64,000 nt of DNA from assembly GCA_022478985.1 (NCBI GenBank), contig JAKSZP010000167.1, forward strand, positions 97,572 through 161,571. Direction: 5' to 3'. The stretch's first letter is position 1. The number at the start of each line of letters is the position of its first letter. Source of the DNA: Massospora cicadina (lineage: Eukaryota; Entomophthoromycota; Entomophthoromycetes; Entomophthorales; Entomophthoraceae). The position numbers were made by a program, and so were the translations under genes. Below the pieces are notes generated by a model. The model saw only the letters and a program-made list of their open reading frames with translations. It was not told the origin of the DNA and made no database searches. Shown here in pieces: positions 2,153 to 58,626 of this stretch.

Positions 2153-4069
2153 TTTAGTACTAGTGGTGTCCAACCCAAAAGAAGGAGCCACCACACATCT
2201 TTATTCACAAATGGGCCAAACAAAGGGATTATCATAAAATAAAAAATGTATAATATAGCCCCTAGGTTATCAGCCTAGGAAGCCATATCAGATGGTGAGG
2301 AAGCTTTAAGGAAACTTTTGTCCAGCGCCCGCTTTAGCTGGCGGACCATGGCAGACAGCATTGGAATGGGAGCATCATCGACATGGGGCATAATGAGGTA
2401 TAGTTGGGGGTTTTCTTCATTAATGAGGCCAGCAGTGTTGATCGCCTCAACATATTAGGAAAGTTAATGCTTAGCAAAAATGATGAAAGCTGGCACACAA
2501 GTAAATGACTTGATGTGCTGGCAGGTTTTGGGATAATTGAGGTCAAAAGAGAAGTTTCTGCTGCATTGATGCAAGTGCGGCTTTCACTGAAAGTAAGCTC
2601 CTCAGTTTTGTAATTTGCATCTTACTCAAAATCATGAGGAACTTGGGGATAGAAATACCCTCAAGAAGGGATCCATTGCCCCATGGAGTTGCTGGAGGAG
2701 GAGGGTGTTGGTCAGGGCAGCCGCAGCCGCAGCTGCAACTGCCATTTTGTTTATGTTTATAAATGGGAAACCTGTTTTTTTGTACAAAAACAGCGAAAAT
2801 GCGATTTAGAAGAGTCAACAAAGAACTCCTCAAAAGCAAAATCAGGTTTCACATGGTATGGACATTTGTCCTCATCAATCCATTCGAGAGCCTCAAATGG
2901 ATTGGATTCAGCCAGCGCTGGGACAGCCACAGGAATTGGGGCTGTGGCTGGAGCTGATTGGCCACATGCTGTTGATTATGGCAACTTAGCTGAAACTGGT
3001 TCAGCCATCAACTCAGGATTCTGTAATCTGGTTGAATTTTCAAAATTTTTAAATTTTCTTAAATTTTGATTGGCCATCACTTTGAAAGCAGCGCTAGAAT
3101 TCCCCAACGTTGGGGGTGAAAGGATTGAGCCCCATTCAAAAAAATTGGGGTGAGGCAGCCACCGGAGCAGCGCCTGAGCCCTGAGTGGCGGACACAGCAG
3201 AATTGGCAACTGTGGGTCACTTGCGCTTTGAGTGGTCAAGCTCAAAGCAAAAGGGGCAAATGGCATGACCGTTATTGAGGCGTGCCCATAATGGGTGATC
3301 AGGGGCATATCTGATCACAGTGCAGGGGGAATTGCGAGGTGATAGTCATAATGAAATGAGTGTATTGTTGCAAAGGTGAAAGTCCCTGCCAACTGATCTG
3401 CCCCATTGGGAATCACAAACTGCAACACAGAGTCTGCGCAATAAATGGCCAAACCCTCCATGAGCTTGTGGGGGAGGCATTGGGGGGAATGGAAATAGGG
3501 CAACCTGGCGAACTGGACAACCAAAGTGGCCTCATCTGGGAGCTGGGTGTGAATGGTGGGCAAATGATTTTTTAAAAATTAATTGCAGCTTGGCTGCTGC
3601 CACTGCATCAGCTTCAAAGCAGAAGCTAAGGTTGAAGTACCCCTTAAAGGGGAAGAAGTCAATATAGCCAGCAGGTTTGAAAACCACTGTGGCCATCTTG
3701 ATGATGGCTGCACTTATGTATAGAAAGGAGATTCTCATATTTGACCGGGAGGCTGAAACACAAATTGCTCCGTGGGAGCACCAAAGGGCTCTGTAGTACT
3801 GCCTGAGAGCTGTTGAGGTTGTGGGCCAAAACTGAGGGGGACATAATGCCCAGTAGCGTTATGAGGGCTAGCAGAGCCAGCCTGGGTGCACATCGGCGGC
3901 GGCTGAAAGATGCCAGATGGCAGCACACCACCACCCCAAGCAGGGGCAGCAGGCGTCAGTGGCATCAACATTGGTAAGTTTTGGCTAAATTGAGCAGTTG
4001 TTTTTATATTTTTTTAAAATCCAAATTTGGCTTCAATTTGGGTATCAAAGCAAAAGAAAGCTAGCAGAG
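2153..4069 (-). mobile_element. ORF1-only non-LTR retroposon H1 (1917 bp)
   Basis: The element is flanked by an exact 10-bp TSD, gttactcttt, at 2143-2152 and 4070-4079, inside the G1 3' LTR. The empty-site sequence can be checked against the other G1 LTR near 28200-28240. On the minus strand it ends in a short A run after an AATAAA located about 55 nt upstream. It carries one LINE ORF1-like reading frame and no room for endonuclease or RT. It is closely similar along its length to H4 (56716-58626). Confidence 0.85.
2275..3971 (-). pseudogene. H1 ORF1-like (gag-like) zinc-knuckle protein, frameshifted
   Basis: The start at 3971 is the ATG that aligns with the H4 start. The N-terminus is Pro/Ala/Gly-rich (TPAAPAWGGGVLP). 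Next comes a block FFPFKGYFNLSFCFEADAV and LPDEATLVVQFARLP, then HKLMEGLAIYCADSVLQFV. The block order resembles the RNA-binding region of the larger LINEs' ORF1 (HLKDGLIVYGKIESFEMQRF). A CCHC-like knuckle, ICPFCFELDHSKRK, is readable near 3210-3255 in a shifted frame. The last conserved part ends CCLPWSAS in one frame, or with a stop at 2275-2277 in the best-aligned frame. Several frameshifts are needed, so it is a pseudogene. The presumed role is binding the element RNA. Confidence 0.7.
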
Positions 4070-4744
4070 GTTACTCTTTAAGCGCGAGAAACTTACTTAC
4101 CAGGGGATTTTTATAGTATTTAAATCAAAATATTAAAACCCTTGAAATGATAAAAAACTGGATTTTTATATTATTATTTTATTGTTGGTGAGGGGATAAG
4201 AAGCAAACCCTCTTACAATTACACTACTTAGTATTTAAATGAACAGAAGGCTTGATGTGTATAGGCGAATAATTCATTATTAGCTTCAAGCTTAATAGGT
4301 AATATGGGAGTTTGACCTATTGGAGCTCTTGAAACTTGCCTCGCTTTAGTCAAAATGGCCTATGGAGGGTTGATAGTAAGTATGATAAGCCTGTGAGGTA
4401 AAGATTTGATGAATTTGAGCCAATCACCGTGTGGAAATATAGTTTCACCTGGTGTAACCCTCTCCAGGCCTATAAAAGGGCCCAGTATCCGCGTTTAAGT
4501 TTGAACTAAATTGGATATAGGACATGAGGGACCTCCAAATGGCTCCCCTGATTATGCATGCGATTTGGTGTAATTCTATTAGAAATTGTAGGCCTGTTTG
4601 GCTGAGGAATTGGATTAATCGCCTTACTATGAGAAGCTAGAAATCACTTAGAATTGGATAGGCCTTTAATAAATTAAAAATCAGAGCTATTCTCCTCTGA
4701 ACTTTTTTACTTACTAATCAAACAACCGTTTGTCCTTATTACTA

Positions 4745-6031: not shown

Positions 6032-7418
6032 ATGTTGGGTAGCAGTTGGGCAAACAAAGTTAAGGGCACAAGAGCAGGCCCCACACCAACCAAGTTTCAT
6101 AAATGCCCAGCGATACTGGTGGCCTAGATAAAATTAGTAGTAAAAACTGGTGGTTAATGTTTCCCCAAAATGTTGGCCTTGCAGGCGCGCTGAAACCAGT
6201 TCATCAATATTCTGCACTCCCAGACACTGTCGTTGGTGGAAAATGGAGTGTAAGTCTACCTGAATATACAACAAATGGCGCTTTGGGAGAAGTTTTGTGG
6301 ATAAGTACACACATTTCCCAAATGCTGTGTAAGTAACACAACATCTCATGCCTTGCAGTTGGCTGGATCTTGTGTTCAAAAACATATATGCAGAAGATGA
6401 AGCCACAAAAGTGCGGGAGGTGGTGGACCTTCCAGGTGGTCAAGGGGTAGTCAACACAAAGTGCATTCGCTGAACTAAATCTAACCAAATTTTCGTAACT
6501 TTAGACTTCCTACCTACAACAAATAAGCGCACCGTGATGGAGGACCACCTGAAGGCTGAGCTCACTGAGTATGAGGAAACACAATCCTTTGAGATGCAGC
6601 GCTTTATGCTCATGCTGGACCTGTGCATGGGCAAAGCGATTGCTGTTTTCACCCCAACCGTGGGGGTAGTACAAGATTTGATCCAGATTCCCCACACTTC
6701 TTTGTGGAGATTGATGGGCAAGAATCACACCTATCTGGGTCGCCATAGTTAGCACACATCCTTTCTGTACTTTTTGACATACTTTTGACCACAAGGCCTA
6801 TACCTGCTCCACCAAGGAGGGCATTACAAAAATGAAAACATCCTGGGTGCAATGTGCGTTGCAGTCGCCCACTATGAACCAGCATTTGACACTGACACAG
6901 CCTTCTGTGGGGTACGCCTATGTGCTACATTCAAATGAAACATGTGTCCCTGAAGGAGCGCAAGAAGGTCAAGCAGGCCCACAGAGCAGCGGCCAAGGTG
7001 GCAGCCACGGCTGAGTCTATGATCCCAACCACCCAGCTACAGGAGGACATTGAATCGTTTGCTGTGGAAGTGTCTCAAAAATCTTCCACCAATCTGATTG
7101 GGCTGCCCAAGCTTATGACCTGATGGGTGAGTCAGATTCATCCGCCCAATGCCACCAAGCCCCAATTGAAACTGAGTTGCCCACCAATATCCCTGTCAAA
7201 ATTTCGTTAACATGCGAAGGTGCACTGCAAGTGTACACCACACAAAAAAAGAATTCCAAGGGTGGAAGAAAACAGAAGGTGAAAGCCAACATCAACCCCA
7301 CCGTGAAAGCTACCCATAATGAGCCATACTCCATAGCAAAGAATACCCACACTGCCATACAGCAACATGCTGAAAAGAGAAGGCTGAAGGGCATGGGTGC
7401 CCTTCCCCACGCACCTAA
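6032..7418 (+). pseudogene. LINE L1 ORF1 (gag-like RNA-binding protein)
   Basis: The start ATG at 6032 gives MLGSSWANKVKGT, aligning with MSGSSWASKVRGT in L4 and MSGSSWASKARGA in L3. The middle is frameshifted. A decayed CCHC knuckle lies around 6752-6815 (FDHKAYTC in place of FGHKAHACP). The Lys/Ala-rich stretch KKVKQAHRAAAKVAATAES at 6920-7120 follows, as in the sister copies. The end is taken as the TAA at 7416-7418 inside a palindrome just before the ORF2 ATG, by comparison with L4. Confidence 0.75.
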
Positions 7419-7424
7419 GGTGCA

Positions 7425-10400
7425 ATGGGGGAGCCTTTACTATAGGGATATTGAACATCGCTGGACTCAGGGCCTCACCGTCCAGGGCTAGGAAACTGAG
7501 TTAATTTAAAAAACAATTTACTCATGGACATTCTGGTCATTCAGGAACCCAATGTCCACGCGGTGCAGAGGACACATGGGCAACCATGCTCCTCCCTTCC
7601 TTTTCCTTTTGGTCATCGCTGTGGGGTGCTTATTCATGTGACCCATAATTTTTAAATTCATATTATCTATTTTGTACCTCGATGACCATGTCCTTGTTGT
7701 ATCCTTTTCATGGGATGATGAAGTTCACACTGTCATTAACATATATGCCCCAACCTGTGCACGAGCTCATCAAGAATTCTTCTTAGCCATTAGTTCCCTC
7801 CCGCTTCCCTCTAACCCATTTGTTGTAGGCGACATGAACTGCTGGATCAACCCAACCACTGGCCGCTTGCCCTCGTCGCCTATTCCCCTGCAAAGGCATG
7901 TAGAACTTCACATTCTAAAAGCCAATTTGGGGTTTTTTGATACTCTGCCGCCTCATGCACCGCTACTCCCAAACATGTCTCGTCCCCATGTGCATAATGA
8001 ACAACTGAGGTCTATGTCCCACATTGACCTTATTCTCTTACCGTTGAAATTTGAGTCCCAAATTGCCCACTTTACAATGACAAAACTCAATTTATCCAAC
8101 CACAGGATGGTATCAGTTTCCTTCTCTTTGTCACATCCAGTGGCACAGGCGCCAAAGTGGTGCAAACTTCACCCAGCTGAGATCACGTCGCCCAGGCTCT
8201 CCTTATGGGTGGACACTGTAACCTCAGCTCCGAAATTCACCACACTGTTATGTGCAGACCCACTTTCCACCTTACCAGCCTTCAAAGCAAACACCATCTT
8301 CCAGGCATGCCACATCTCATCACATCGCTCTCAGGATGTCTCAGCAGTCATCTTTCACATTCTGTCAGAAGTGGACCACCTGAAGTCCAATGCCCAGCGG
8401 CAGGCTACAGCCCAGCTTGGGGTTATAAGCGGGCAGAAGAGTCCACTCACCTCAACGCACTTGTAAGATAAAATAAGAATCGGGTTTGAGTTCAGTATAA
8501 AGCAAAGCATATAACAGTGGGTGGCACATGTTCCGCTTACTTTTTTTGAAAAGTCTTCACACTGCGCCAGAGCTTAGCCTGAACACAGGTGCGGTGACCA
8601 AACCACTCCATCTCAGATACTCCAGCTGAAGTGGCAATTGAAGTACAAAATTATTACTCCAAATTGTATTGCTACAATTCAGTTCAACAAGCTGAAATGG
8701 ACAATTTTCTCAAAAGTGCACATATCTGCACCACTTCCCACTATATATGTCTTGATGAATTTAATTTCTCAGGACGAACTCTGGTCTGACATTAACGGTG
8801 CACTGTACAGAAGAATGCCCAGGTCCAGACAGGATTCCTTATGAGTTCTATAAGAAATATTCCAAATATTTTTCCTCCATGCTGCTTGCCTCAATGAACC
8901 AATGCCTTATGTAAATGCGCCTCCTCCATGGAGGACAAGAGGCCTACACAATAACGTTGTACAAAAAAAGGAAAAGCTGGACTTGCCAACTGGCGCCCCA
9001 TTTCTCTCACTAACACAGACACAAAAAAATTTTACTAAAATCATGGCAAACCGCCTAGGGATAGCTGCATCAGCTCTCATTTCCCCTGAGAATTTGGCTT
9101 CATTCCTAAATGGTCTATTTGGGACAACATACACACCATAGCTATGTCTGCCAATCCACGGATTCTGAGCAATTGCTTTTTTAGACCAGCAGAAGGCCTA
9201 TGATAGAGTCAACTGATTACCTCTGAGCCTGCCTCCAAAAGTTCCACCTCTCCTATCATTTCATTAATTGGATGATGTTGCTAACAGAATAATCCACAAT
9301 GGCTGTGTGGCCCTGGCATCCTAATGGATGTATTTCTCCCTCAAAGGGGCCTACGCCAAGGGGACCCTCTAAGCCCACTTTTGTATAACTTCAGCCTTGA
9401 CCCACTTCTTCGCAATGTAAATGTCAGCCTTACTGGTGTTCATGTGTAAGGCCAAGCACCAGTCAAGATGTTGGCGTTTTCTGATGATTATGCGGTTGGG
9501 GTATCTAACAATCATGATGCACGTGCGCTTGAAGATACTATCTAGGTTTACTCCAGGGTAAGTAATGCTGCACTCAACGCCTCCAAAACTGAAATCATTC
9601 TCCTTGGTCGGTGTCAAGCCTGCTGGGCCCCAGCGCCCTGTTTCCTACCCGCCTCGTCAGCTAGCGCACGAGTTAGCTTGCCTTGCCTTGCCCACCCCAC
9701 ACCTCCCTTCTTATGCTCCCTTTGTGCCAAGCCCCACCGCTGGTCCAGTCCGCCATTTGGGGGTATGATGGAGGCAAGAGGGTACGCCTCAATGGTGATG
9801 GAGCATCAAATACTGGACAACTTTACAAAACACATAGCTTCCCTCAAAGCCCGCCATACCTCCTTTACAGGCAGGGTAGTGCTAGCCAACTCTATGCTCC
9901 TTCTAAAGTTTGGTTTGGGGCCAAACCCATCGCTTTTACCCTAATTTCTTCAATTCATTATACGCCCTTCTGCAAGGGTGGCTTTGGTTAGGCCGCTACC
10001 GCCAGTGCTCCTGGATGTCATGTCTGGCCCTCGCCTTAGTAGTGGCATGGGCCTGGCCAACTATGAGGTTCATGCCGCCAAAATACTTGGCACCTGGATC
10101 GCTGCAGTCACCAACCCAAAGGTCTCAGCCCAGCACTGGTCCTGCGCGGCTGTCCAACTTCTCCTGCACCCTGAGCTTCAGCAATCCTATCCACCCCCAT
10201 TCTCTGTTAAAGTACCTTGCCTCACACCCTTCGGCAGCAGGACCACATGGGACGTCGCCCACTTCAAAGAATTCTCATCTTCATGTGGAGCTCTGAGTGG
10301 AGAATTTGCGTCAGTAAGCATACTGCCCAGAGGGGATGCCCTACTCCTCAGTTCACACAAGAAGTACAAGGACAACCCATTCTGAATGGAGTGATACCCA

Positions 10401-11110
10401 TGAGGTCCCCTATCATAGCCAGGATGAACTAACTAGACATGTTGGACATCCCCTACTCCTTTGATACCCATAAAGCCATTTGGAAGTACGCCCACCACCC
10501 TCTTCTACAGCCGCATATTTGTTCCCATGTGTGGCGCTGCAAGAGATAGTTCTACCATACTGTCAAGAACTCTAACATTTTTCACTCATCTTGTGTCATG
10601 TGTGACCATTATGGAACTTTGGAATAACGCCCAAGAAGAGTGCCCTCCCTCAAAAGTAATCTGGCGTGAGGTTCAGCATCTCTTTTCCAGGATCAGGCAC
10701 ATCCCTTCAGCTTATCTAATGACATCTTCACCTTGTCCTTGGTTTCCCCTATACCACCTTCCCTCTGAGCTTTAGTGTTTGCAATCGCTATGTGAACTAT
10801 CCACACAGTTGCCTTGGATGCTATCTCAGGTTCTACTCCAACCCTCCAGGAAGCTGTACGCCAGTTCCAGTCGCACCTTGTTGACCACTTTCAAGCTTGG
10901 ATGTTTGGGTACCTACCATCCCGCCACTGACAGTTGGTCTCATCCTGATTTCCAGTATGGTTCATCACTTCAGACCCCTTCCTTCATATGTGTTCTATAG
11001 TGGCGCAAGCCCCTACAAAAGTAACCCCCCTTCCATTTTTTGGCATTTCCGCTGGCAACAGGAGATAGCGTTTGCTTCTCTGGGGTGCCCTTCTCTTGCT
11101 GATGTTTGTT
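7425..11110 (+). pseudogene. LINE L1 ORF2 (APE endonuclease - reverse transcriptase - zinc finger)
   Basis: The ATG at 7425 follows GCACCTAAGGTGC and leads into GILNIAGL in a shifted frame. Endonuclease pieces in 7672-8466 are INIYAPTCARAHQEF, VGDMNCWI and SHIDLILLPLKF; the catalytic SDH is SNH here. RT pieces are IMANRLGIAASALISPE (about 9040), LDQQKAYDRV (about 9180), a polymerase box AFSDDYAVG (about 9475) and a GPVRHLGV-type segment further on. A C-terminal Cys/His region lies near 10560-10640. Many stops and frameshifts make it non-functional. Confidence 0.85.
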
Positions 11111-11529
11111 TCATTAGTTTACAGATCAGAAGTGTCCATCCCCTGGTTGGCCTTCCTCAAATAAAATTTAAAACATTAAGTAGGAGCTCTTCCAATAGTC
11201 CAGGTGTAAAGGTCCAATTTGTTGGCTCCCAGAATGAACAGCTGATACAGATATTAGGAGCTTTAAGCAACAGATGGAAGAATTGGGTGAATGTGGCCTC
11301 GTAATTAGGTAAAAATAATTTGAGCATAAGTAAGATGATTTTAGGTCAAATTTGGAGTAAGTCAATTAATATCCCGAATTTAAGATATGATATGATGATG
11401 TGGGATCAAGCCTTAATTTAGGACTTATTGAAATAACTTAATAGTTTGAAGGCTATGTACCACATGCTCACATCTGCTGATCTTCTCCCCTGGACAAGGC
11501 TTGCACCTTGTAAAGGTAGAATCCTGACA

Positions 11530-12157
11530 TAGCCCCCTCAAGCCTTGTCCAAGGGGAGTAAGTCTTGGTCCATGAAGATATAATTGGCCCAATTAGTATT
11601 TGAGGTATTCACGATATATTTTTGTTGTATATTAGCTAGTAAACTTTATTAGGTCCCTTGACTGATGTATCTTTACTCAGGACTAAAAAATATTAATCTG
11701 ATGTTGGTTGGTTAAGGTCTGAGCTGGCTCAGATTTGTCAGGACTGGCAACATTTCAAGCTGCAAACTGATCCAGGTAATTTATATGCTCCATTCTGATA
11801 ATATTTTGCCCAGATTTTGGAGGAGAGTTGTTGACATCGATGGATGAATATTAACATTGAGGAATCATTGGGCTCATTGATTCCTAAGCTAAAGTAAGTC
11901 CCAGTTAATTTATCCAACACTTTTGGCAATTCAAGGTGCTGGATGTATTTGGAGTATCCACATGGCTCTCATGGCTTAATTTTAACATCAAGTTCTAAAA
12001 ATTTAGCTCTTAAGGCTTAATTCTAGCATTGAGTTTATTATTAACTCTATAGGCTTAATTTTCGAGCTAAGTACTAGCTTTCAACTTTTCCTAAAGTGAT
12101 TGGAGCTTCTGTGGGTCCCTTGAGACTTAATTTCTAGTTGGGAAATTAGCTTGCAAC
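11530..12157 (-). other. NA internal region, part 1, with repeated TTAAGCC-type units
   Basis: This is non-LTR sequence of NA between its 3' LTR and LINE L2. From about 11960 to 12157 there are imperfect units of about 35-75 bp, each with GGCTTAATTyyAG followed by TTGAG or TAAG and then an AATTAGCTCT-type element; the array continues at 15381-15565. A short open frame at 11738-11929 (minus, 63 codons) has no recognisable family. I see no pol coding here. Confidence 0.55.
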
Positions 12158-15100
12158 CCCACGTCCACAACGGCCAATGAAGGTCTATGACCCGCATCAA
12201 CATTATCCTAACGCTGGCGAAATTCCAACCCCACATATCCCACTTCAAAACAACAAAAATGGAATTCTCTGACCATTGACTGGTCTCGTTAACCTACCAC
12301 CTACCTGTCACAGCTGCTAAGGCCCCACATTGGTGCAAAATCCGCCCCTCCGAGCTCACGTCGCCAGGGTTTTAATGTGGGTGGAAGCGGCAACTTTGAG
12401 AAAGGAGTTTGTTGCACCAATTTGCGCAGACCCCATTTCCACATGGTCAACTTTCAAAGATGACACCATCCGCCACTCTCGCCATCTCTCCTCCAGATGC
12501 TCACGAGCCACATTGGCGGTCATTTCGCGCGCTCTGGCAGAGCTTGCACACCTGAAGTCAAATATCCCAGCTACAGGATACAGCTCTGCATGGGGCCAGA
12601 AGTGGGTGGAGGCAGCTGCCCACCTCAAAGCACTCGAAAGGCAACACAAACATCAGGATTGTGTTCAGTACAGGGCCAAACGCATCACAAAAAGTGACAA
12701 GTGCACCGCACATTTCTTTAAAAAAGATTTGCACCACACCAGAGCGTGGCCTGCACACAGGTGCAAAGATCAGATGATTTCATTGCGGATACGCCAGCCA
12801 AAGTGGCAATTTAAACGCAAAGATATTACTCCGAGTTATACCGAGCCAAACTAATTCTAGCTGGCCAAAGTGGCGGAATTTCTCGACTGAGCCCACATCT
12901 GCACCATTATCTGATAACCAGAAATAATGAATTTGATTACTCTAAGTGTATTATGGACAGCCATTCGCGGTGCACCAAACTGAAAATGCCCAGGCCCAAA
13001 TGGCATTCCATATGAATTCTACAAAAAGTAATACAAATATATATCCTCATTGCTGCTCGCCTCAATTAACCAAGGCCTGTTAGAAACGCGCCTCCTACCA
13101 GGAGGACATGAGGCCTTTACCATCACACTCTTCAAGAAAGGGGATAAGCTAGACTTAGCCAACTGGCGCCCCATTTCTTAAACAAACTCAGACACTAAAA
13201 TTTCAACAAAAATCATGGCTAACCGTTAGGGACTGTAGCATCTGCCACCATATCTCCAGAACAATTAGGTTTCATACCTAGAAGATCAATATGGGATAAT
13301 GTACACTCTGTGGCTAATGTATGTCAATCCACAGCCTCTGGGGCGCTTGTATTTTTGGACCAACAGAAGGCCTATGATAGAGTAAACTGGGAATACATCA
13401 TGGCCTGCCTCCATCAGTTCCGCTTACCCCCCCCGCTTCATCAACTGAGTGATGCTGCTCACGGAATCTGCAACGATGGCAGTACGTGGCCCTAGCTTCC
13501 TAACGGAAGTAGTCCGCCCTCAAAGGGGCTTGAGACAAGGGGACCCCTCATCCCACTCTTATATAACTTCAGCCTTGACCCACTACTGCGAAACGTGAAT
13601 GCCCAACTCACTGGGGTCCATGTGCCAGGCCAAGCCCCAGTCAAGATAATGGCGTTTGCAGATAATTTTGTGTGTTTGGGGTGTCTAATAATCAAGATGC
13701 ACGCGCGCTTGAATCTCTCATCCAGGAGTATTCCCGGGTAAGTAGTGTGGCACTGAACGCTTCCAAAACCGAAATCATCCACCTTGGTTGGTTTCAGAAC
13801 TGCTGGGCCCCCGCAAATTAGTTTTTAACCTGGCCCATCTGATCGCCCACGTCCTCGCCCTACCAGCTCAACACACACCGACACACTGGGGCTACCCTTC
13901 GTGCCACGTCCTACTATAGGACTGGTACACAATCTGGGTGTGTGGATGGAGGCAGGAGGATACGCATCAGCAGTAATGGAAGTGCCATATTCTGAACAAC
14001 GTGATGAAGCGAATCGCCTCTCTCAGAGCCTACCCTACTTCCCTTAAAGGCAGGGTAGTTTTAGCCAACTAGTATCTCCTCTCCAAATTCTGGTTCGGAG
14101 CCCACGCCATCCCCTTCTCACCAAGTTTCTTCAAATCCTTGTATGCCCTGCTGCAAGGATGGCTTTGGTCAGGCCGCCCTCCACCAGTATGGCTAGAGGT
14201 CATGTTTGGCCCTCATCATCATGGTGGCATGGGTCTGCTCGACTTCAGAGCCCATGCTGCCAAGATCTTGGGTACCTGGATAGCGGCCGTCACCGCCCTA
14301 CGCTCCCCCTCCCAACACTGGTCCCGCACAGCCCACTCCAACTTCTCCCAAGCCTTGGGCCTCAACAACCCATTAAACCCCCACTCCCTGATGAAATACC
14401 TCGCATCACACACATCAGCCACAGGCCCACACGGGACTAAAACCCACTACAAATGAATCCTACTCTCCATGCGGAGCGCTGAGTGGAGAATTTGTATTAG
14501 CAGACACACAGCCCAGAGAGGCCGCCCCTCTCCTCAGTTCACAAAAGAGGTACAGGGGCTACTCATCCATGATGGCGAGATCCTCACTAGACCCATGTAC
14601 TATCCAGGGTGGACTACCTGGACATGATGGACATCCCTTATTACATTGAGACCCAAAAAACTATTTGGAAATACGCACACCATCCTCTGTTGCAGCCATA
14701 AGTCTGCTCCCATGTGTGACGCTGCCTGAGGCGGGTGTATCATACAGCTGAGTGCTCTAACGCTTTACACTCATCCTGTGTCATGTGTGGCCAGTATGGA
14801 ACGCTGTTCCACCGCCTGGAGAAGTGCCCTACCTATAAAGTGATATGGCGCGAAGTTCAACGTCTGCTAGGCCAGGATCAAACGCATCACTTCAGTTTGT
14901 CAAGAGATATGTTTGCTCTATCAATGACCTCCTCTCTTCCACCCTCCCTCCGTGCTTTGGTGGTTGTAATCGCCATGTGGACCATCCACACGATTGTCTT
15001 AGATGCCATCGCAGGCTCCACCCCCACCCTCCCAGAAGCTGCCCTCAGATTCCGGTCTCATTTGGTGGACCACTTTCAAGTGTGGATGTTTGGATACCTC

Positions 15101-15304
15101 CCACCGCGTTGCCAACAGCTGGTCTCCTCCTGGTTCCCAGTTTGGTTCATCAAATCAGACCCCTTCCTCCACACGTATTTAATTGTGGCTACGGCCCCTT
15201 CACACGTTCCCTCCCCTCCCCATAAGTGGCGTTCCCGCTGGCAACATGAGATAGCATCGCTTCTCTGGGGTGCCTTCCATGTTACTAAGTTTTGTCTCTT
15301 CTGA
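12158..15304 (+). pseudogene. LINE L2 ORF2 fragment (endonuclease tail, RT, zinc finger)
   Basis: It begins in the endonuclease C-terminus (MEFSDH, near 12255-12275). RT pieces include LDQQKAYDRVNWEYI at 13350-13400, LRQGDP-like and NFSLDPLLRNVNAQLTG near 13565-13610, with the FADD box changed to FADN. The C-terminal frame 14735-15304 (189 codons) holds CVMCGQYGTLFHRLEKCP, a C-x2-C-x7-H-x4-C zinc-binding motif like the zf-RVT region found after many LINE RTs, then VIWREVQRLLGQDQ and AMWTIHTIVLDAIAG. It is frameshifted and therefore inactive. Confidence 0.85.
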
Positions 15305-15368
15305 GTCATATTTGGAAGTGTCCATCCCATGGTCAGCCTTCCTCGCAATAAATAAATTAAAATAAAAT
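12158..15368 (+). mobile_element. 5'-truncated LINE L2 (3.2 kb)
   Basis: It is flanked by the 12-bp TSD ttagcttgcaac at 12146-12157 and 15369-15380. It starts inside the endonuclease domain (the counterpart of about 30365 in L4), so the 5' 2 kb is missing, as expected from incomplete target-primed reverse transcription. The 3' end carries AATAAATAAATTAAAATAAAA. It sits in the NA internal region. Confidence 0.92.
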
Positions 15369-15380
15369 TTAGCTTGCAAC

Positions 15381-15696
15381 TTTTTTTACATTGATTGGAG
15401 ACTCTATGGGGCTCTCAAGGCATGATCCCATCGTCAAGCTTGGAAATTAGCTCTTGAGGCTTAAATTTATTGTCAAATTTGAAAATTAGCTTTGAGGCTT
15501 AATTCAGTTATTGATTTATGAAATTTAGCCCTCAACTCTTCCCCAATTGGTCAGTTTGATTAGTTTGTTGAGGCTCATTGGTCAAGTTTTAATTGCCATT
15601 TGACACTTTTGGGTACAAACAGGCAATAGCTTCATTTCCAATTTCTGCTCTGAAACAGCAGAGGGGAAACGGCCTCATAATTTGAATTTCAATCTT
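15381..15696 (-). other. NA internal region, part 2, end of the repeat array
   Basis: The imperfect units continue from 12157 after removal of L2: gattggagactctatggggctctcaagg here pairs with gattggagcttctgtgggtcccttgag at 12100-12126. Two GAGGCTTAA units follow, at about 15450-15500. From about 15565 to 15696 no gene or repeat is recognisable. Confidence 0.55.
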
Positions 15697-15709
15697 TAAA
15701 TTTATTGTG

Positions 15710-19446: not shown

Positions 19447-19452
19447 TGCACC

Positions 19453-20864: not shown

Positions 20865-20976
20865 GGGTGCAGACTAATTCCCTCTATGAGATTATCAAAC
20901 TGGATTTAGTCTTGAATTGAATGGGTTGCAAAAGTGTTTGCAACGAGAAAGAAAAAATTTTTTGAATTTCAATCTT

Positions 20977-37298: not shown

Positions 37299-37313
37299 AA
37301 AAGATAAGGCCCA

Positions 37314-40298: not shown

Positions 40299-40313
40299 AA
40301 AAGATAAGGCCCA

Positions 40314-42506: not shown

Positions 42507-42521
42507 ATAATGATTACTCAG

Positions 42522-44018
42522 CAATATGGTAAAGAACCTGTTAAGGTTCAACGAACGTTGAACAAAATGATGCAGTTTACTTTTGTTGAGAATAAAGATT
42601 GTACAAGGTTATTGACAAACAACCCTTTTGTTCACTAGGCCCATTGAACAGATGGACTTGATTATCACCGCCTATAAGTCAACAGGGCATGGTCAATATA
42701 TTCAAATACTCGACTAATTTAGGATCACATTAATATTAGGATTAAGTGTCTTATGATATCCATGAGACTCCCAGTTGCCATCAAGAATGCCAAGCTCAAG
42801 CACCCTACCAGAAGTACACTTCCTATCAATCAGATAAACCCAATTTTCCTGGCAAAATATCTTTATTGACGTTGTGAGGCCCTTGGCTACTACTTCTGGG
42901 CAATTAAATATTTCATTGTAGGGGGGTGGAAGGTGAGTCAGTAAGGGTGTACAGCTACCAACCTGAAGGTTGTGGGTTCAATTCTCACCCTTCACACATC
43001 AATCAGGGTGCAAGCCAAAGGAAGCTATTGGCGGTTAGTAGGTCTAATAACACAAAAACCTTACCCATGACATAACCAGAAAAATTTGAGTCCCAATATG
43101 GAGGTGGAAAAACTTTCTTCAATATAGTTGACCCTGTTCAGGCTTCAAGTCATTTCTTTATTTCATTTCTTTCTTTCAGTAATGCCTGTCCCCTGGTCAG
43201 CTTGCCTCTGTTAAATAAAATATTTCATCATGGCCATTGATCACCTCACCAAGTGGGTAAAGCCAAAGCAGTCAGAGTCTTAGGGGCCATGATTACTGCT
43301 ACGTATTTCCTTAAATATATTATTTACTGGCATGGATGCCACCAATTTTTATTGACTGACAAGGGAACTAATCTCATGTTCCAGATGATTGCTAAGCTTA
43401 ATGAATTAATGGGTATAAGAGTGTATTATCTCCCCTTATCATCCCAAGATTAATGACTCCATCAAGTGAGTTAATGGTACTCTTGTTGGTATTTTAGTAA
43501 ATTAGTTATAGAAAAACGTCCAGCTGGAACTTTTCTTTCCTTACGTTGTATTTGCATACAACATAGCATACACTCAGCCATGGGTCACTCTATTTGCGTT
43601 ACTTCATGGGTAAGCAACCTATGCTGACCCACTTTTTGTACTCCTTTATTTACATTAGAGAGCTTGAGTCCTAGCAGATACCTTAGTTAGCTCGCACAAA
43701 CATTAGTTCAGCTACAAATATCGCCTACTCCAACACGCTGGCTCAGAGAACTAAGGCTAGAGCACGTAATAACAAAGTCTTCCAGAGATTACCTACTTTT
43801 GGTGTAGGGGAACTGGTTTGGTATTGTGACAATATGGCTTTGGAAAAACTAGAAGACTAGCACATATTTAAGAAGTCATTTGATATCATAAAGGAGACAT
43901 ATACGGTTGCCTAAAATATGAAAAATTCCACTAAAGGCCGTCTTATCAATTAAGTGCATGCTAAATTACATAAAAAGTAATACCCACTATTGTAATTTCG
44001 TGAGAAAATTCAATAATC
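42522..44018 (+). pseudogene. G2 integrase, interrupted by SINE S2
   Basis: The N-terminal zinc region is decayed (SCHQECQAQAPYQKY near 42770-42830). The core begins IFIDVVRPLATTSGQLNIS (42855-42915), is split by S2, and resumes IMAIDHLTKWVKAKAV at 43229. It then reads WHGCHQFLLTDKGTNLMFQM (second catalytic Asp) and VYYLPLSSQD. A later stretch, LPTFGVGELVWYCDNMALEK near 43790-43850, is C-terminal. G3 cuts the gene at 44018. Confidence 0.8.
42917..43217 (+). mobile_element. tRNA-derived SINE copy S2 (301 bp)
   Basis: The TSD aaatatttcat lies at 42906-42916 and 43218-43228. The head matches S1 (GGTGGAAGGTGAGTCAGTAA), with B box GGTTCAATTCT at 42975-42985. Conserved body motifs are TATTGGCGGTTAGTAGGTCT and GAGGTGGAAAAACTTTCTT. 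The tail is GTCCCCTGGTCAGCTTGCC then TCTGTTAAATAAAA. Removing it rejoins G2 integrase coding sequence (LNIS-IMAIDHLTKW). Confidence 0.9.
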
Positions 44019-44579: not shown

Positions 44580-45599
44580 AAATGGAGTATTTAATACCCT
44601 GACGATAGATTATTCAATAGGGTCCAGACAATAAGGTATTGAGTTTGTAAATTTGTCCTCCAGATCTATGATGATAAAAGAGTACAAGATCCCTGATCTG
44701 ATATTTTAGTAAAGTAGGTCGAATCACATTGGTTCTAGTTCCCTCTTTTAAGGTTGTAGCAGCAAGAGAACTCAAGGCTAAGGCTTGTATTCTGATAATC
44801 TCATCAGCTAACCTTCTCATAGCTAAATTATTGGCTTATGGGGTAGCAGTATCAAGTATAGTTTGTACACTGGAGGGTAAAATAGGATCCTGACCATACA
44901 GAGCCTTGAAAGGAGACATTCCAATTATACAATAATAGCTAACCCTGTAAGCTAAAATTGCGCTAGGTAAGTATATATTCCATCTACTAGGGTCAGTTGA
45001 AGCCATCTTTTAAAATGGCTACCAGGGTACCATTAGCTCGTTCAACAGCACCATTAGTATAAGGATTATAAGGAGCTGTAAATGACTGATAGGTACCCAT
45101 CAATTTAGTAAGCTCAAATACTAACTGTGAAATGAAATTGAACTCATTTTTAGATGATAGTACTTTTAGTATACCATATTGGGTGAAAACTTGCTTAAAA
45201 AGAAGGACGCAGTAGACTTAGTGGTGACAGTGGAAACAGAGACAGCCTCAATCCATTTGGTAAAATGTTCAATAGCTAAAATGATATAGCGGTGTACATA
45301 AGTAGCAGTAGGAAGGGGACCGAATACATCAATACTCATAATAGAAAAAGGTTCTGAAGGTCCCACAATTTTATGTTGATAAATCGGATTACCACTATGA
45401 TGTTTTTGGCAAGTGAGACAAGTTTTTAACACATCATGCACAGTTTCCATCATAAAATCCCAATAACATTGATTTTTCAACAACTGTAAAGTCTTCACGA
45501 CAGCTCCATGCCCCACATCTTGATGAGTCTCCATAATGGTATTAGTCCTAGCAGAAGGCTGAATAAAAGGTAGCCATTTAGATCCCAACTTTTTATAGA
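44580..45599 (-). pseudogene. G3 integrase (zinc domain, core, C-terminus)
   Basis: The frame at 45166-45588 reads GSKWLPFIQPSARTNTIMET, GHGAVVKTLQLLKNQCYW, CLTCQKHHSG (HHCC region), then FSIMSIDVFGPLPTATYVHR and EHFTKWIEAVSV (core with first Asp). Downstream, 44900-45160 has a TQYGI...S-type core and 44614-44820 the C-terminal part (LKYQIRDLVLFYHHRSGGQ). The codons KKLG just before are duplicated around H2. Stops separate the segments. Confidence 0.88.
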
Positions 45600-45836
45600 T
45601 TTTTAAATTTTATTCTAGGTACACCAACCAGGAGTCAGAAATTGCCAATACTTAATGAGAAAAAGAACTGAACAAAAGAATTGAATGGATCAAAAACCAA
45701 AAACCAACCAAAATAAAAAGCCAAAATAAAATTCCAACCAGGAGGAAAGTGGAATACCGCTAACCCACCATGGAAGAGGGTGAGGGGGATTGGGCACCAC
45801 TTCTAAAGACATCTTTGGCTAGTAAGCATCACTGTA

Positions 45837-47718
45837 TTTTATTTAACCGAGGCAAGCTGACCAGGGGATGGACAGTATTGAAACTAAAAACTATAATATG
45901 AATTGACCGCCCTTTTGGGCAGTGAGACATAAAAAAAAAAATTAACCTACCAGGTTGCACAGCGGCGAGCTGCTTATCTTGTCATGGTGGAGGTGGAAGG
46001 GGGATTGGGTGGGTCGTCATCAGGCTCAGCATTGTAGAAGCGGAGCAATGCTGAGAGCAGGGGGTTGGGGCATCCGCGGGATGAGGGTCAAGATGAAGTA
46101 TATAGTTGTTGAGATTGACAATTTGGGCCTGGATTAAAGCCTCTATGAGTTCAGCAATGTGGTGTTCAGCCTTGACGTGAGCATCAAGAAGATGTTCTAT
46201 CTTTGAAGTATCTGCTCTTGTGGTGCGTTTGGTTGGGGAATAATCTGCAAGTTCAGCAATATGCTTGACAGCGGTGGTGGCAGTTTTATGTAGTTGTTGG
46301 ATTTCTTCTTTTGTGGTAGGAGGAAAATCAGAGAGGAACAAAGGGGGGTGCAGCCCTTTTTTAATTCTGCGACAGATTTTGAACACATTTTGCAGATACA
46401 GGGATTATTGATACAGACCAACACATCCTCGGCAAGTTGGTGATCACTTTTGGGAAAAGGTGGGTTTGGGTTTGGGGACGTATCAGTTGGTTGGGGCTGG
46501 GCCATCAAAGTCTTAATTTAGATAAGGTGTTAAATAAATTGATTAACTCGGCGGTGGGTTGTTGAATCAGATTTGGTCACTACATCCAATAAATTCCAGG
46601 GATTTTGGTTGATTCAGGAAGATCAGGTGGTAGGTGATTTTGGTTGGTTAGGTTTTGGGGCAGGAGATTTTCTGTATTGCAAATGGGTCCAATCCTGCTC
46701 CTGATTGGTTGTCATGGGTGTATATTGGCCAGCTTGAGTTGAGGTGCTAGATTTTGCTTCTGATTCTAGTGCATGGCATGTGGGAGTGGGGGCAGCCAAA
46801 ATCCCCACTCAAACGCTGTTGTGTGGCCTCATGGGTGGAGTTGGCTATGTTTTCAGAGTATGAATTATATAGGCATGCCTTTTTGTTGTAGTCCAATTCA
46901 TAACATAGGGGGCAAATTGTGCGATCATTGTCAGTGCAGGCCCAAAGTAAATGGTTGGGTGCTGATAGAATACAGGCATGTGGTGGGATATTCTGTGCCA
47001 AGTTCATCTGGTGGGGGGTAATGGCGACCATTGCCTGAGGTGCCACAAGGCGTCAGCACCACTTGGGACAATGAATTGGAGGATAGGGTTTTTGCATATG
47101 TGTACAACCCTGACATAAACTCCTCATAGAGTGTTTGAGGGGGAAGGTGTGAGGGGATGTTTGCAAAGGTTACCACAAGTGTGGTATCATCTGGGAGGCG
47201 TGTTTGGGTGGTGGTAATGAGGGTGTTTTTATAAAATTAATTGCGTAGCTGCTGCAGCGTCTGTGGCCTCTTCAGTGGGAATACCATACCAAAACAGCCC
47301 TTGTACAGAAGTCAATAAACCCTGCTGGCGCAAAGGTGGCCGCAGCCAGCTCAATTATTGCTTTGTCAGCATATGGGAAGAGGCATCAATACTCAATGTG
47401 GAGGCAAAAGCGAATATTGGATCAGGGTAGGGATAGGGGGTGGGGGTAGTTTGGGTGGGTTCATGCGTGATGGAGTGCTAAGTCCCTTGGGGGCATAGCA
47501 GCCAGATGTATTTGGAGGATTGGATGAGCCAGTCTGCACACTTTTGCATGCTGGGTGGTAAACACTAGCAGGTGGAGCACCGCTACCCCATACTGGGGCA
47601 GCAGGTGGTGGATCAGAGGACATAAATTTGGAGATTGGTGTGGTGAGGTGATGGAATAATTTGACTTGTCTTTCTAAAATTGCTTGAAAGCAATGTTAAG
47701 CAGAAAGAAAAGCTAAAT
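45837..47718 (-). mobile_element. ORF1-only non-LTR retroposon H3 (1882 bp), nested in H2
   Basis: It is flanked by an exact 12-bp TSD, agcatcactgta, at 45825-45836 and 47719-47730, placing it in the 3' tail of H2. The minus-strand 3' end, CATCCCCTGGTCAGCTTGCC then TCGGTTAAATAAAA, is nearly the same as the SINE tails and related to the LINE tails. It carries one ORF1-like frame. Confidence 0.88.
45982..47623 (-). pseudogene. H3 ORF1-like zinc-knuckle protein
   Basis: The start is MSSDPPPAAPVWGSGAPPAS at 47623, parallel to the H2 start. A central block AAATFAPAGFIDF is near 47330. The knuckle region reads TICPLCYELDYNKKACLYNS (the CCHC His is Tyr). The C-terminal part at 45982-46386 is helical and His/Ala-rich (AEHHIAELIEALIQAQIVNL, then NNYILHLDPHPADAPTP), homologous to H4 AEHQLAQYVEAMDTASL ... 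VADAPTP. It needs several frameshifts to join. Confidence 0.72.
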
Positions 47719-47759
47719 AGCATCACTGTAGTCATTGTAAAAATGGACAAAAGTGGAGA

Positions 47760-49340
47760 TCCAGGGTGTGGGCATTAGCGTGGTGGGACTGTAGGTGGTT
47801 GAAAAGTTGGTTACCTTCCTCAAGATCAGCTTGGTAGACAGCTTTAACAAATTTCGCTATGTGGTGTTCAGCTTGAATGCAGGCTTTGGGAAGTAGGGAA
47901 ATTTTATTGAGACTTTGTCAGGTGATTATTGCAGATGGGTCAAAATCTGCTAATTGTGCCACATGCATGACCGCATCAATGGCCTCAGTGGCCAATTTTG
48001 TGATTTCCTCCTGTACTGTTTTGAGGAAATAAGGGGGAAAATCGACTATACTCAGCCCATGTTGGAATTGAGAGATGTATTGGGCCACCGCTTTGCATAG
48101 GATTGGGCAATGGGGTGAGGCCACCGCTGCTAAGGCGAGATGGTGGTCACTTTGGTAAGGGATGGCATTGGGTTTAGGAGTGAATCGCTTTGGGGATAGG
48201 GATTTGTCAAAATCAGAATTGTAAAATTCAGCCCAAACACACTTAACTGGGCCAAGAGGTTTACTGAAGTCCTCATTAATGACAACGTTACCTGATTTGT
48301 CAATCTCAGCCAATAATTCTCATGGATTTTGGTTCACAGGAAGAGTAAATGAGGACTTTGGGTGTGCAGAACTCTAATGGGCTGCTTGGGCTTGAATGGT
48401 GGTCCAGGCTTGTTTCTGATTGGTGTGGGTGAAATTCACTGGAATAATGTGGGTGAGTTTGGTGGGGGCAAATTTCCCACTCTGGCCCATCAAATGAGAA
48501 CATTGAGCGGGAGGGGCAACAAAACGCCTATTTGTAATCTGCTGAATATGGCTCAGAGGCCACTCCAGAGGAAGTGGCTTGAGGCATAATTTTTGGAATG
48601 GTTGAGTTCAAAACAGAAGGGACAAATTTGCCGACCATTATCCACCTGAGCCCAAAAGAAATGCTCAGGTGCCACAGCGATACAAGAATGGGGGAGTTTG
48701 TTAGGCTATGGCAGGGTGGTGAGGGATTATGGTGGTAGTGGCGCGAGGTGCAGCAAGGCGCTCTGCTCCAGAAGGAATGGCAAAGACAAGAGTGGGCTGA
48801 GTCTCATAAAGCCAGAAGCCCTGCCATCAACTGATCTTAGAATAATTGGGGTGGTAGGTGAGATGGGAGGGATTCAAAGGACACCACTAAAGTGATGTTA
48901 GAAAGAAGATGAGTTCAGGTGGTAGGTTTAGGAGTGTTTTTGTATATTAGGGTAGTAGAAGCTGCTGCTGCAGCATCCTGCTCCGTTTAGAAGCCAACAT
49001 CAAAATTGCCCTTAAATAGGTGGAAATTTAATAAAGCCATCAGGTGCAAATGCAGCCATGGCTACTTTGATAATTGCCTTGTTGGTATATGGGAACAAAT
49101 GCCCGTAGTCAACTATTAGGCAAAATCAGATGTTGAAATGAGGGAGGGCGAGAGGATGGGGCAATAAGGGTGGATGCGCGCCAGGTGGAGCACTAATTCC
49201 CGTGGGGTGACAAAATGGCCTGAAGAAGATGGTGGGCTATTAGACCCTGTGCAAATGCATTTACCCGCAGGGTGGAAAACGCTAGATGGTGGAGCATTGC
49301 TATCCCACATTGGAGCAACAGACGGTGAATCCTCAGACAT
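47760..49340 (-). pseudogene. H2 ORF1-like zinc-knuckle protein
   Basis: The start is MSEDSPSVAPMWDSNAPPSS at 49340. After frame changes, a zinc-knuckle remnant QICPFCFELNHSKNYA lies near 48580-48640. The frame 47918-48313 reads PNAIPYQSDHHLALAAVASP and AIDAVMHVAQLADFDPSA, a C-terminal helical region shared with H3 (TTAVKHIAELADYSP), followed by AEHHIAKFVKAVYQADLEEG near 47810-47880. No enzyme domain is present. Confidence 0.7.
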
Positions 49341-49432
49341 TTTTAAAAATGGGCATGGCCATATGACAGTGGAAAATTAAGCGCTTTTTTCTTTTTAAAA
49401 TCACTTGAAGTGAGATTGAGCATAAAGAAAGG

Positions 49433-50340
49433 TCCCAACTTATTATATAGAGAACCTTATTTAATTTGATTGTCCTTGGTTAAAGATTGTAGCTTTGCCA
49501 TAATGTCCTTAGATTAACAGTACCATAGTTTGGGTCTGCTAATTAAGTCATAGATGCAATCCTCTTCAGCAGAGAATAGAGTCAGTATGGGTAATTAAGA
49601 GAGTCCATCAGCATTTTGGTGTATAGTTCCAGTGCAATGGTGAATTGAAAGGTCATAATTCTGAAGTTTTAGAGCCCATCTAGCTAAACGTCCATCATGA
49701 TCCTTCATTTGTTGTAAACATTTTAGAGATGTAGAATTGTGATGATAGTAAAATGTTTTCCATAAAGGTAAGGGTGAAAATTCTTGATGGCTGATAGGAC
49801 TGCAGGGCACTCTCTCTCAGTAACATTATAATTGCGTTCTGTTTTGGGAAGGGTTTTACTATAAAAAGTGATAGGGAGAACTACTAGATTGGAGTCATGC
49901 TGAGCTAGGATAGCCCCAATACCTACATCACTGACATCTTTAAAAAAAGAAAAAGCTATAAAAAATCAGGGTGAGCTAAAATAGGGGCACTAACTAAGGT
50001 TTGTCATAAAAGTTCAAAAGCTTGCTGTTTCTATTCTTCTCATTAAAAAAGCTTCCTTGTGTAATAAATATATACTAAAGGGTTCCACAATTTCAGAAAA
50101 ATAGGGGATGAATCGTTAATAATAACAAACCTTCCTAAAAACACTTGAATATCATGCAAGCTCTTAGAAACAGGCATGTCCATAAGGCTTGAATCTTATT
50201 AGACAAGGGTAAAATCCCTTCATGTTTAACCTTATAACCTAAAAATTCCATTTTGGTTTGAAAAAGCACACTTAAATGGTTTAGGCTTAAGAGAAGCTTG
50301 GCGCATTCAGCCAAATACTTCTTTTAAATGGGCTAAGTGC
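49433..50340 (-). pseudogene. G3 RNase H and connection region
   Basis: The minus strand reads SLHDIQVFLGRFVIINDSSP (connection region, near 50120-50180), then CPAVLSAIKNFHPYLYGKHF (49740-49800) and RLARWALKLQNYDLSIHHCT (49600-49700), which are RNase H motifs. It ends GSLYNKLG at the H2 insertion, the first codons of the integrase linker. Stops are present. Confidence 0.8.
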
Positions 50341-56534: not shown

Positions 56535-56715
56535 TTTTCCCCCTTTTGACTCAAACATAAGCCCTAAGAAACCTGATTAGCCTTTGTTGGTCTGTTATTA
56601 TTGGCCTGAATGTTTTAAGTAGCATGGAGATGGGTTTTCTATTTGTTAACTTCATCCCAAACGCCTGATGAGTCAAAACTCTGATCCTCTTATTGTTAAT
56701 TTCAGCTAAAATGCT
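56535..56715 (-). pseudogene. G4 integrase extreme C-terminus
   Basis: The minus-strand frame reads ILAEINNKRIRVLTHQAFGM, KLTNRKPISMLLKTF and QQRLIRFLRAYV then a stop, just before the polypurine tract. It continues from 58627-59103 once H4 is removed. Confidence 0.6.
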
Positions 56716-58626
56716 TTTTTTAACACTAGTGGTGCCCAACCCAAAAGGGGGAGCAACCATGCATCTTTACTTACAAATGGGCCAAACAAAGGAATTAACA
56801 TAAATTAAAAAAAATCTTAATATAGCCCCTAGGTTATCAGTCTAGCAAGCCATATCAGATGGTGAGAAAGCTTTGGGTAAACTTTTGTCCAGTGCCCGCT
56901 TTAGCTAGCGGACCATGGCAGACAACATTGGGGTAGGGGCATCAGCGACATGAGGCATAAGGAAGTATAGTTGTGGGTTTTCTTTGTTAATGAGGCTGGC
57001 GGTGTCCATTGCCTCAACGTATTGAGCAAGTTGATGCTCAGCAAAAGTGATGAGAGCCGGCACACAAGTAAATGACCCGGTATGCCATTGGGTTTGGGGA
57101 TAGTTGGGGTCAAAAAGAGAGGTTTTCGCTGCATCAAATGCAAGCACGGATTGCCCCAAAAGCGAGTTCCTCAATTCCATATTTATCATCCTCATCAAAA
57201 TTGGAAAAGAAATTTGGGATGGGAATACCCTCAACTAGGAATTCCATCATTCCATGGAGATGCTGGCGGAGGAGGGTGTTGACAGGGGCAGCTGCGGCTT
57301 TCACTGCCATTTAATTGATATTTTTATAATTTGAAAAGCCACTTTTAAAGTAAAAGCAGAGGGGTGCGAATTGGGAGGATCAATAAAAAACTCCTCCAAT
57401 GTGAAATCTGGCTTCACAGCGTATGGCTGGTCACTATCATCAATCCAATTGAGACACTCGAATGTATTAAGCTTGGCTAGTGCTGGCCCAGCCACAGGAG
57501 TTGGTACTGTGGTGAAACCAGATTGGCCATAAACAGTTGACCATGGCAGCTCAGCCAAAACTGTTTTAGCCATCAACTCAGGATTCCGTAACCCAGCCAA
57601 ATTATTCAATTTTTAAAAAATTTAAAATTTTGATTGGCTGCTGCTTTTGAAGCAGCGCCAGAATTACCTGAGGGTGGGGGCGGGAGGATCACACCCCATT
57701 CAAAAAATTGGGGTGGGGCAGTTGCTGGGGTGGTGCCGGAAGGAGGGGCAACAGAAGTGGTGGAGGTGGAAACCATGGGGCATTTGCACTTAAAGTGGTT
57801 AAGCTCGAAGCACAAGGGGCAGATGGCACAGCCATTTTCAACGCGCACCCAAAAATGATGATCAGAGTGGACCTGATCATGGTGTGGGGGGAATTATGAG
57901 ATGGATGTCACAATTAAATGGGCGAATCATTGCAAAGGCATGAGGGCCTGCCAGATGATCTGCCCCATGGGGCACCACAAACTGCAACATGGGGTCTGCA
58001 CCATAAATTGCCAAACCCTCCATGAGCTTGTGGCAGAGGCCTTTGGGGGAAAGGAAAGAGGGTAACCCAGCGAACTGGACCACCAAAGTGACCTCATCCA
58101 GGAGCTGGGTGTGAATGGTGGGGAGCAGAATTTTTATAAAAATTAATGGCAGCTTAGATGCTGCCACTGCATTGGCTTCCAAGTGGAAGCTGAGGTCAAA
58201 GTACCCCTTAAAGGGGTGGAAGTCGATAAAGCTGGCAGGTTTATTAACCTCCATGGCCATCTCGATGATGGCCACACTTGCATATGGGAAAAGGTTCCCA
58301 TATTTGACCCAGAGGCTGAAATGAAAATTGCTCCGTAGGAGCACCAAAGGCTCTGGAGCACCGCCTGAGAGCTTGCAAGGCGGTGAGCCAAGTCCCAAGG
58401 GGGGACATAACGCTTGGTAGCGTTGGGAGGGCTAGCAGAGACAGCCTGGGCGTGCTTCAACGGCGGCTGAAAGATGCTAGATAGCAGTGCACTACCACCC
58501 CAAGCTGGGGAAGCAGTCATCAATTGCATTGTCATTGGTAGGTTTGGGCTCAAGCAAGCAGTTGTGTTTTGGTTTCTAAAAAGATCCAAATTTTGCTTCA
58601 ATTTAGGTATCAAAGCGAAAGAAAGA
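56716..58626 (-). mobile_element. ORF1-only non-LTR retroposon H4 (1911 bp)
   Basis: TSD-like repeats are ttcagctaaaatgct (56701-56715) and ttcagcctaaatgct (58627-58641), 13/15. It is closely similar to H1 from end to end (for example TATAGCCCCTAGGTTATCAG and GCGGACCATGGCAGACA in both). The minus strand ends in ...CACCACTAGTGTTAAAAAAA. It is inserted in G4 integrase. Confidence 0.85.
56842..58535 (-). pseudogene. H4 ORF1-like (gag-like) zinc-knuckle protein
   Basis: The start at 58535 gives MTMQLMTASPAWGGSALLSS. The frame 57877-58398 reads KPASFIDFHPFKGYFDLSFH, LEADAVAASKLPLIFI, LLDEVTLVVQFAGLPSFLSP and HKLMEGLAIYGADPMLQFVV. The knuckle is ICPLCFELNHFKCKCP (C-x2-C-x4-H-x4-C) at about 57780-57822. 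The C-terminal frame 56905-57234 reads LITFAEHQLAQYVEAMDTAS and FLMPHVADAPTPMLSAMVR, closing near a TAG at 56842. Length would be about 560 codons. Two or three frameshifts only, so this is the best copy of the family. Confidence 0.78.

Follow-up and report, generated by a model that had tools for sequence, protein, structure and literature searches.

Long interspersed nuclear elements (LINEs) that carry only the first of the usual open reading frames, ORF1, have been described in mammals, in a slime mould and in flies (PMC5753468, PMC3627910, PMC5391098, PMC5537684). HAL1 (half-L1) of mammals is described as a non-autonomous L1 derivative that encodes only the ORF1 protein (ORF1p) and is thought to need ORF1p in cis and the ORF2 protein (ORF2p) in trans (PMC5753468, PMC3627910). 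TRE5-A.2 of Dictyostelium is presented as an element of the kind without long terminal repeats (non-LTR) that has no ORF2 at all and depends on TRE5-A.1 for mobilisation in trans (PMC5391098), and HeT-A, found at Drosophila telomeres, as a non-LTR element with gag but no pol, which presumably borrows its reverse transcriptase (RT) from TART or TAHRE (PMC5537684). Here we describe four elements, H1 to H4, in a 64-kb window (the whole stretch analysed, positions 97,572 to 161,571 of contig JAKSZP010000167.1, assembly GCA_022478985.1) from Massospora cicadina, an entomophthoralean, cicada-killing fungus. We conclude that these elements are very probably the decayed remains of a half-LINE, a non-autonomous L1-like lineage with ORF1 only, which was probably mobilised in trans by the ORF2 protein of complete LINEs in the same genome. 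The M. cicadina assembly is given as 1.5 Gb with a mean GC content of 41.13% and 92% transposons (PMC9584336); the GC content of the window is 43.6%.

All four elements lie on the reverse strand, and comparison of their flanks delimited each of them by a pair of target-site duplications (TSDs). H1 (2153..4069, 1917 bp) is complete and stands between 10-bp TSDs at 2143..2152 on its 3′ side (GTTACTCTTT) and 4070..4079 on its 5′ side, which agree at 10/10 positions. H4 (56716..58626, 1911 bp), also complete, aligns with H1 from end to end and has 15-bp TSDs at 56701..56715 (3′ side) and 58627..58641 (5′ side), 13/15 identical. H3 (45837..47718, 1882 bp) is nested in H2, with 12-bp TSDs at 45825..45836 on the 3′ side (AGCATCACTGTA) and 47719..47730 on the 5′ side (12/12 identical). 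H2, which H3 splits, extends over 45598..49432, its 15-bp TSDs occupying 45583..45597 (3′ side) and 49433..49447 (5′ side; 14/15 identical); its net length, taken as the span minus H3 and one H3 TSD, is 1941 bp. When pairs of random 40-bp segments were drawn from the window, the TSD score was matched in 2 (H1), 1 (H2), 1 (H3) and 6 (H4) cases per 1000. The 3′ ends of all four insertions are A-rich. The H2 TSD sits within a Ty3/gypsy integrase (45166-45609 plus 49433 onwards), and joining the two flanks with a single TSD copy restored the integrase frame (..SLYKKLGSKWLPFIQPSAR..), which at this reconstructed empty site resembles a second gypsy integrase copy at 22260-22682. The gypsy element is the oldest, H2 inserted next, and H3 is the youngest.

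A preliminary description of this stretch had placed the ends of H1, H3 and H4 correctly to the base and was off by at most 2 bp for H2. The TSDs of about 10-15 bp or more and the A-rich 3′ ends that it reported are borne out by the flank comparison with its random-pair controls, and the constant length that it stressed holds for the four copies, which measure 1882-1941 bp between TSD-defined ends within the 64-kb window. A 50-bp repeat of 82% identity occurs at 2102-2151, adjoining H1, and at 28153-28202, ~90 bp before one of the LINEs described below (LINE-D).

One broken frame fills each H copy; it opens with a Pro-rich head and continues through a conserved core and a CCHC-type knuckle to a helical tail. 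The single frame proposed earlier does fill each copy, but only across stops and frame changes; these break all four copies, with 14-20 frame changes per pairwise alignment. In read-throughs of H4, H3 and H2 (563, 550 and 539 residues, respectively), the knuckle is followed by a variable middle and by a C-terminus with AEHHIAEL (H3) or a similar sequence. The longest intact piece of the frame in H4 (57880-58431) includes the conserved core (57880..58368), the C-terminal region with AEHHIAEL in H3 is found at 45985..46404, and the first intact piece of the C-terminal region in H2 at 47921..48319. The CCHC knuckle that had been ascribed to the whole family has all four of its C/C/H/C residues in H4 (CPLCFELNHFKCKC, 57777..57826, position read from the sequence) but in no other copy: H1 has a stop at the position of the last Cys (3215..3265), H3 has Tyr at the His position (CPLCYELDYNKKAC, 46871..46922), and in H2 a frame change must be crossed to reach the last Cys (48588..48632).

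H1 and H4 are 76% identical over their end-to-end DNA alignment, and H2 and H3 have a 520-bp block in common at 64% DNA identity. H1 and H4 are members of one subfamily; hence the four elements represent three lineages. Transitions predominate among the differences between H1 and H4 (297 vs. 155 transversions). For comparison at the protein level, all six pairs of H copies were subjected to frameshift-aware alignment, with antisense and codon-shuffled sequences (5 per pair) as controls. H1 and H4 aligned over 624 codons with 66% identity and the other five pairs over 548-574 codons with 37-47% identity. In these five pairs the sense and antisense scores were 507 and 220 (H4/H2), 479 and 194 (H4/H3), 458 and 144 (H1/H2), 435 and 155 (H1/H3), and 822 and 435 (H2/H3), and codon-shuffled controls scored at most 111. 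As is expected of dead copies, the plain DNA alignment of H1 with H4 gave no clear signal of codon periodicity, one of 13 segments (750-900) being skewed 28:15:11. Our reading is that the H protein was probably constrained in its source genes while the subfamilies split, and that the inserted copies then decayed freely. Selective constraint of the kind measured by the ratio of nonsynonymous to synonymous change, which the preliminary description had envisaged, is apparent as protein conservation between subfamilies but not as clear codon periodicity between H1 and H4.

The window also holds at least five copies of L1-like LINEs, two of which are complete with TSDs: LINE-C (15697..20960, reverse strand, 5264 bp, 16-bp TSD) and LINE-D (28294..33553, forward strand, 5260 bp, 18-bp TSD). 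A profile of the H core built from four copies aligned in hhalign with a profile of the LINE ORF1 built from three copies (probability 95.7, E 9.7e-9, score 60.5, 143 columns); 200 column shuffles scored at most 22.1 and the reversed profile 13.0. When 5421 candidates were searched with a read-through of the LINE ORF1, two proteins reached E ≤ 0.01; both belong to M. cicadina, and they are 85% and 72% identical to the read-through over 64% and 59% of its length. Tested on two annotated M. cicadina proteins closely related to this ORF1, a target that involves no choice of frame, the H core gave E 5.5e-10 and a score of 69.8 (100 shuffles reached at most 19.9), and the intact H4 piece alone gave E 7.8e-5 and 0.002. 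When the H core profile was run against all six frames of the window, the two top rows outside the H family were LINE ORF1 frames (E 0.0047 and 0.013), and the order of core and then knuckle is common to H and the LINE ORF1. Because the H core matches the ORF1 of the window's LINEs by profile and does so again with annotated M. cicadina proteins, we conclude that the H frame is, as judged by sequence, an ORF1 homologue. The half-LINE interpretation, which was first guessed from the anatomy of the elements, is now backed by homology.

Pfam detected neither endonuclease nor RT in the sequences examined, which were one piece of each H copy and the H4, H3 and H2 read-throughs. The H C-terminal region, comprising the last ~260 residues of the frame, had no match in the ORF1 C-terminus of LINE-C or LINE-D (E 0.53) and none in the RT and C-terminal part (655 residues) of the LINE-E ORF2 frame (E 0.07, probability 0.8). 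The absence of endonuclease and RT noted at the outset therefore stands for the pieces and read-throughs compared by Pfam and with the LINE-E frame. LINE-E itself (37250..40305, approximate ends, forward strand) is 5′-truncated, and its longest intact frame (38155-40122) matches the RT family RVT_1 at E 2.7e-24 (Pfam). A LINE endonuclease match (E 0.0094) and a zinc-knuckle match in the LINE ORF1 (E 0.0087) both stayed under the Pfam cut-offs; the CCHC motif of the LINE ORF1 (CSHCDVFGHKAHAC) is plain by eye. Also seen by eye were two RNP1-like octamers, KGYFDLSF for the H family and RGWLDLGF for LINE-C. A profile search of PDB with H4, H3 and H2 returned no match at E ≤ 1, and a search of viral contigs with the LINE RT and with the H4 core was likewise negative. 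The same three H queries recovered no homologue at E ≤ 0.01 from a protein database in which 7997 candidates were scored; this negative carries little weight, since the LINE ORF1 drew only two proteins from that database and broken frames seldom receive an annotation.

The resemblance of the H elements to the LINEs of the window extends in part to their ends. In 4/4 H copies and in 2/2 full-length LINEs the motif TTTCTTT begins 2-10 nt inwards of the 5′ end set by the TSDs, and it occurred in a 22-nt segment in 0.4% of 50,000 chance draws; it was chosen after the ends had been seen, and with H1 and H4 forming one subfamily the H cases number three. At the 3′ end, the tail of H3 is common to two short interspersed nuclear elements (SINEs) on the forward strand, SINE a (42209..42508, TSD-like flanks matching at 12/13 bp) and SINE b (42917..43219, with a weak 9-bp TSD whose 9-mer occurs four times in the window). 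These SINEs, ~300 bp each and 87% alike over 244 nt, have a tRNA-like head that was recognised by eye; ARAGORN reported no tRNA in either head. H3 and SINE b agree at 35/40 nt of the tail, a match equalled by 0/3000 random segments, or by 1/3000 when the A-rich part was left out. The tail of H2 is closest to that of LINE-A, a diverged relative of the other LINEs (6103..11180, approximate ends, forward strand), with 23/28 nt identical and 1/3000 random segments as good. Two of the three H subfamilies accordingly carry a 3′ tail in common with a LINE or with SINEs.

The half-LINE reading takes in what was observed directly, namely insertions with TSDs, A-rich ends, a frame homologous to ORF1, no endonuclease or RT found, conservation between subfamilies and the LINE motif at the 5′ end. 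Under it, the RNA of a living H element would have been translated into its own ORF1-type protein, with core, CCHC knuckle and helical tail, and this protein would have coated the RNA in cis. The ORF2 protein of a co-resident L1-like LINE would then have taken the 3′ end of the RNA, nicked the target and made the copy by target-primed reverse transcription. The recognition signal of H2 and H3 was probably the 3′ tail that LINEs and SINEs also bear; H1 and H4 would have had to use either the A-rich end alone or a tail belonging to some LINE subfamily absent from the window. Packing in cis, copying in trans and recognition of the tail are inferred for H by analogy with HAL1, TRE5-A.2 and HeT-A. 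We also entertain, tentatively and at somewhat less than even odds, a more far-reaching proposal: that H is a long-lived, self-sustaining fungal ORF1-only lineage with at least three subfamilies under selection and a C-terminal domain of its own, that its 3′ tail, shared with LINEs and tRNA-related SINEs, is of the stringent type, and that three classes of element would have depended on one ORF2 protein within a single genome.

Several results weigh against the half-LINE reading or parts of it. The window yielded no LINE whose C-terminal region is of the H type, which leaves the direct parent unseen. Of the tail matches, that between H2 and LINE-A drops to 76/3000 without the A-rich end, and the tails of H1 and H4 show no significant likeness to the 7 LINE and SINE tails in the comparison (2911/3000 and 521/3000 random segments, respectively, were as good). 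A shared 3′ stem-loop had no covariation support (8 rows, 85.0% paired, with 356/500 shuffles as high), and the folds of the 8 tails were weak. Pfam detected no RNA recognition motif in 6 segments at E values up to 10, and AlphaFold modelled the cores with low confidence, the mean predicted local distance difference test score being 39.7 for H4 (9 rows) and 38.8 for the LINE-D ORF1 piece (3 rows). The putative RNA-binding function consequently derives from the homology to LINE ORF1 together with a knuckle that is intact in one copy only. As to coding, the antisense score of the H1/H4 pair (1530) nearly equals its sense score (1736), so this pair is uninformative, and the differences by codon position (273:213:363 over 559 codons for H4/H2 and 245:166:334 for H2/H3) lean to coding because frameshift-aware alignment favours protein similarity, which makes antisense the fairer control. 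Mobilisation of H in trans, finally, may be argued from sequence but is beyond proof by it.

One alternative differs from our reading in the origin of the elements. The H copies could be independent internal deletions of autonomous LINEs with an H-type ORF1, each having lost ORF2 separately, and HAL1 families are indeed described as having arisen several times independently in mammals (PMC5753468). Against this, one architecture is common to the three subfamilies, whose proteins are 32-47% identical, their lengths (1882-1941 bp) differ by no more than 60 bp, and the H C-terminal region is unmatched in the portion of the LINE-E ORF2 frame to which it was compared. We judge repeated deletion unlikely, though distinctly less so than the alternatives that follow. 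It overlaps with our own explanation, as both involve half-LINEs mobilised in trans, and the likelihoods we attach to the two are not exclusive.

Conservation of the protein between subfamilies without an RT, in a window where L1-type machinery is present, would also be compatible with retroposed copies of a host gene, one domesticated from a LINE ORF1 as in L1TD1, whose mRNA had been mobilised by a LINE. Neither the LINE 5′ terminal motif that stands at 4/4 H ends nor the LINE- or SINE-like tails of H2 and H3 would be anticipated in a host mRNA, and three diverged subfamilies within 64 kb would require several source genes. For these reasons we rejected an origin from a host gene, which we consider very improbable. 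The gag-like order of core and then CCHC knuckle, together with the gypsy elements in the window, could point instead to an LTR-type element that is not autonomous, either a TR-GAG, which has gag only, or a LARD. Comparison of the flanks of H1 to H4 shows no terminal repeats, just the TSDs of 10-15 bp, and the TSDs usual for LTR elements are shorter, at 4-6 bp. Given the lack of LTRs, the A-rich 3′ ends and the homology to LINE ORF1, we rejected this origin too and accord it almost no credence.

As a probable half-LINE, the H family corresponds to HAL1 in being an ORF1-only derivative of an L1-like LINE without ORF2, and the parallel with HAL1 drawn in the preliminary description is sound in this sense: H encodes a homologue of LINE ORF1, neither endonuclease nor RT turned up in the pieces and read-throughs compared, and the insertions have TSDs, A-rich 3′ ends and no LTRs, the hallmarks of target-primed reverse transcription. 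H differs from HAL1 in its fungal host, its CCHC-knuckle ORF1 and its C-terminal region, which is unmatched in the LINE parts compared; descent from mammalian L1 is not claimed. TRE5-A.2 is described as a derivative of its partner that inserts, like the partner, upstream of tRNA genes (PMC5391098), whereas H has diverged from the LINEs seen here, and two of its four insertions are within other transposons (H2 in gypsy and H3 in H2). HeT-A, as portrayed in PMC5537684, extends chromosome ends, in contrast to the internal insertions with TSDs made by H.

Also comparable with the H family are the L1-like LINEs of M. cicadina itself, the genome of which is reported to contain 6.3% L1 LINEs, described as unique among relatives (PMC11105155). 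They are like H in having a homologous ORF1, the same 5′ motif and a 3′ tail common to LINE-A and H2 and, by way of the SINEs, to H3, and unlike H in their size (5.3 kb), their RT and weak endonuclease match, and the different C-terminus of their ORF1. Among the best 120 of 142 matches to the LINE RT, the named ones were mostly plant proteins, with a few LINE-1 ORF2 or TX1 proteins and some from Mucoromycota. The window contains one further LINE, LINE-B (12150..15385, approximate ends, forward strand), which is 5′-truncated or degraded, and an additional piece of LINE ORF1 runs off the window end at 63874-63999 (hmmsearch E 1e-6).

ORF1-only LINEs are a known kind of element; a fungal family of them with a C-terminal region unmatched in the LINE parts compared looks new. 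Among the matches listed, no fungal ORF1-only LINE was reported in the titles and abstract openings of the open-licence PubMed Central literature. A non-autonomous retrotransposon of powdery mildew reportedly encodes a peptide (PMC6022598). In a 1.5-Gb fungal genome of which 92% is transposons, elements of the half-LINE type could sit among the unclassified repeats. Mammalian L1 is characterised as relaxed in its 3′-end recognition, whereas a plant L1 lineage and a green alga provide described examples of the stringent type (PMC3747384). The 3′ tail common to LINEs, SINEs and two of the H subfamilies hints at stringent 3′-end recognition within an L1-type system. A fungal ORF1-only family would suggest that the division of labour between ORF1 in cis and ORF2 in trans arises widely, and would make it possible to test the contribution of ORF1p in cis.

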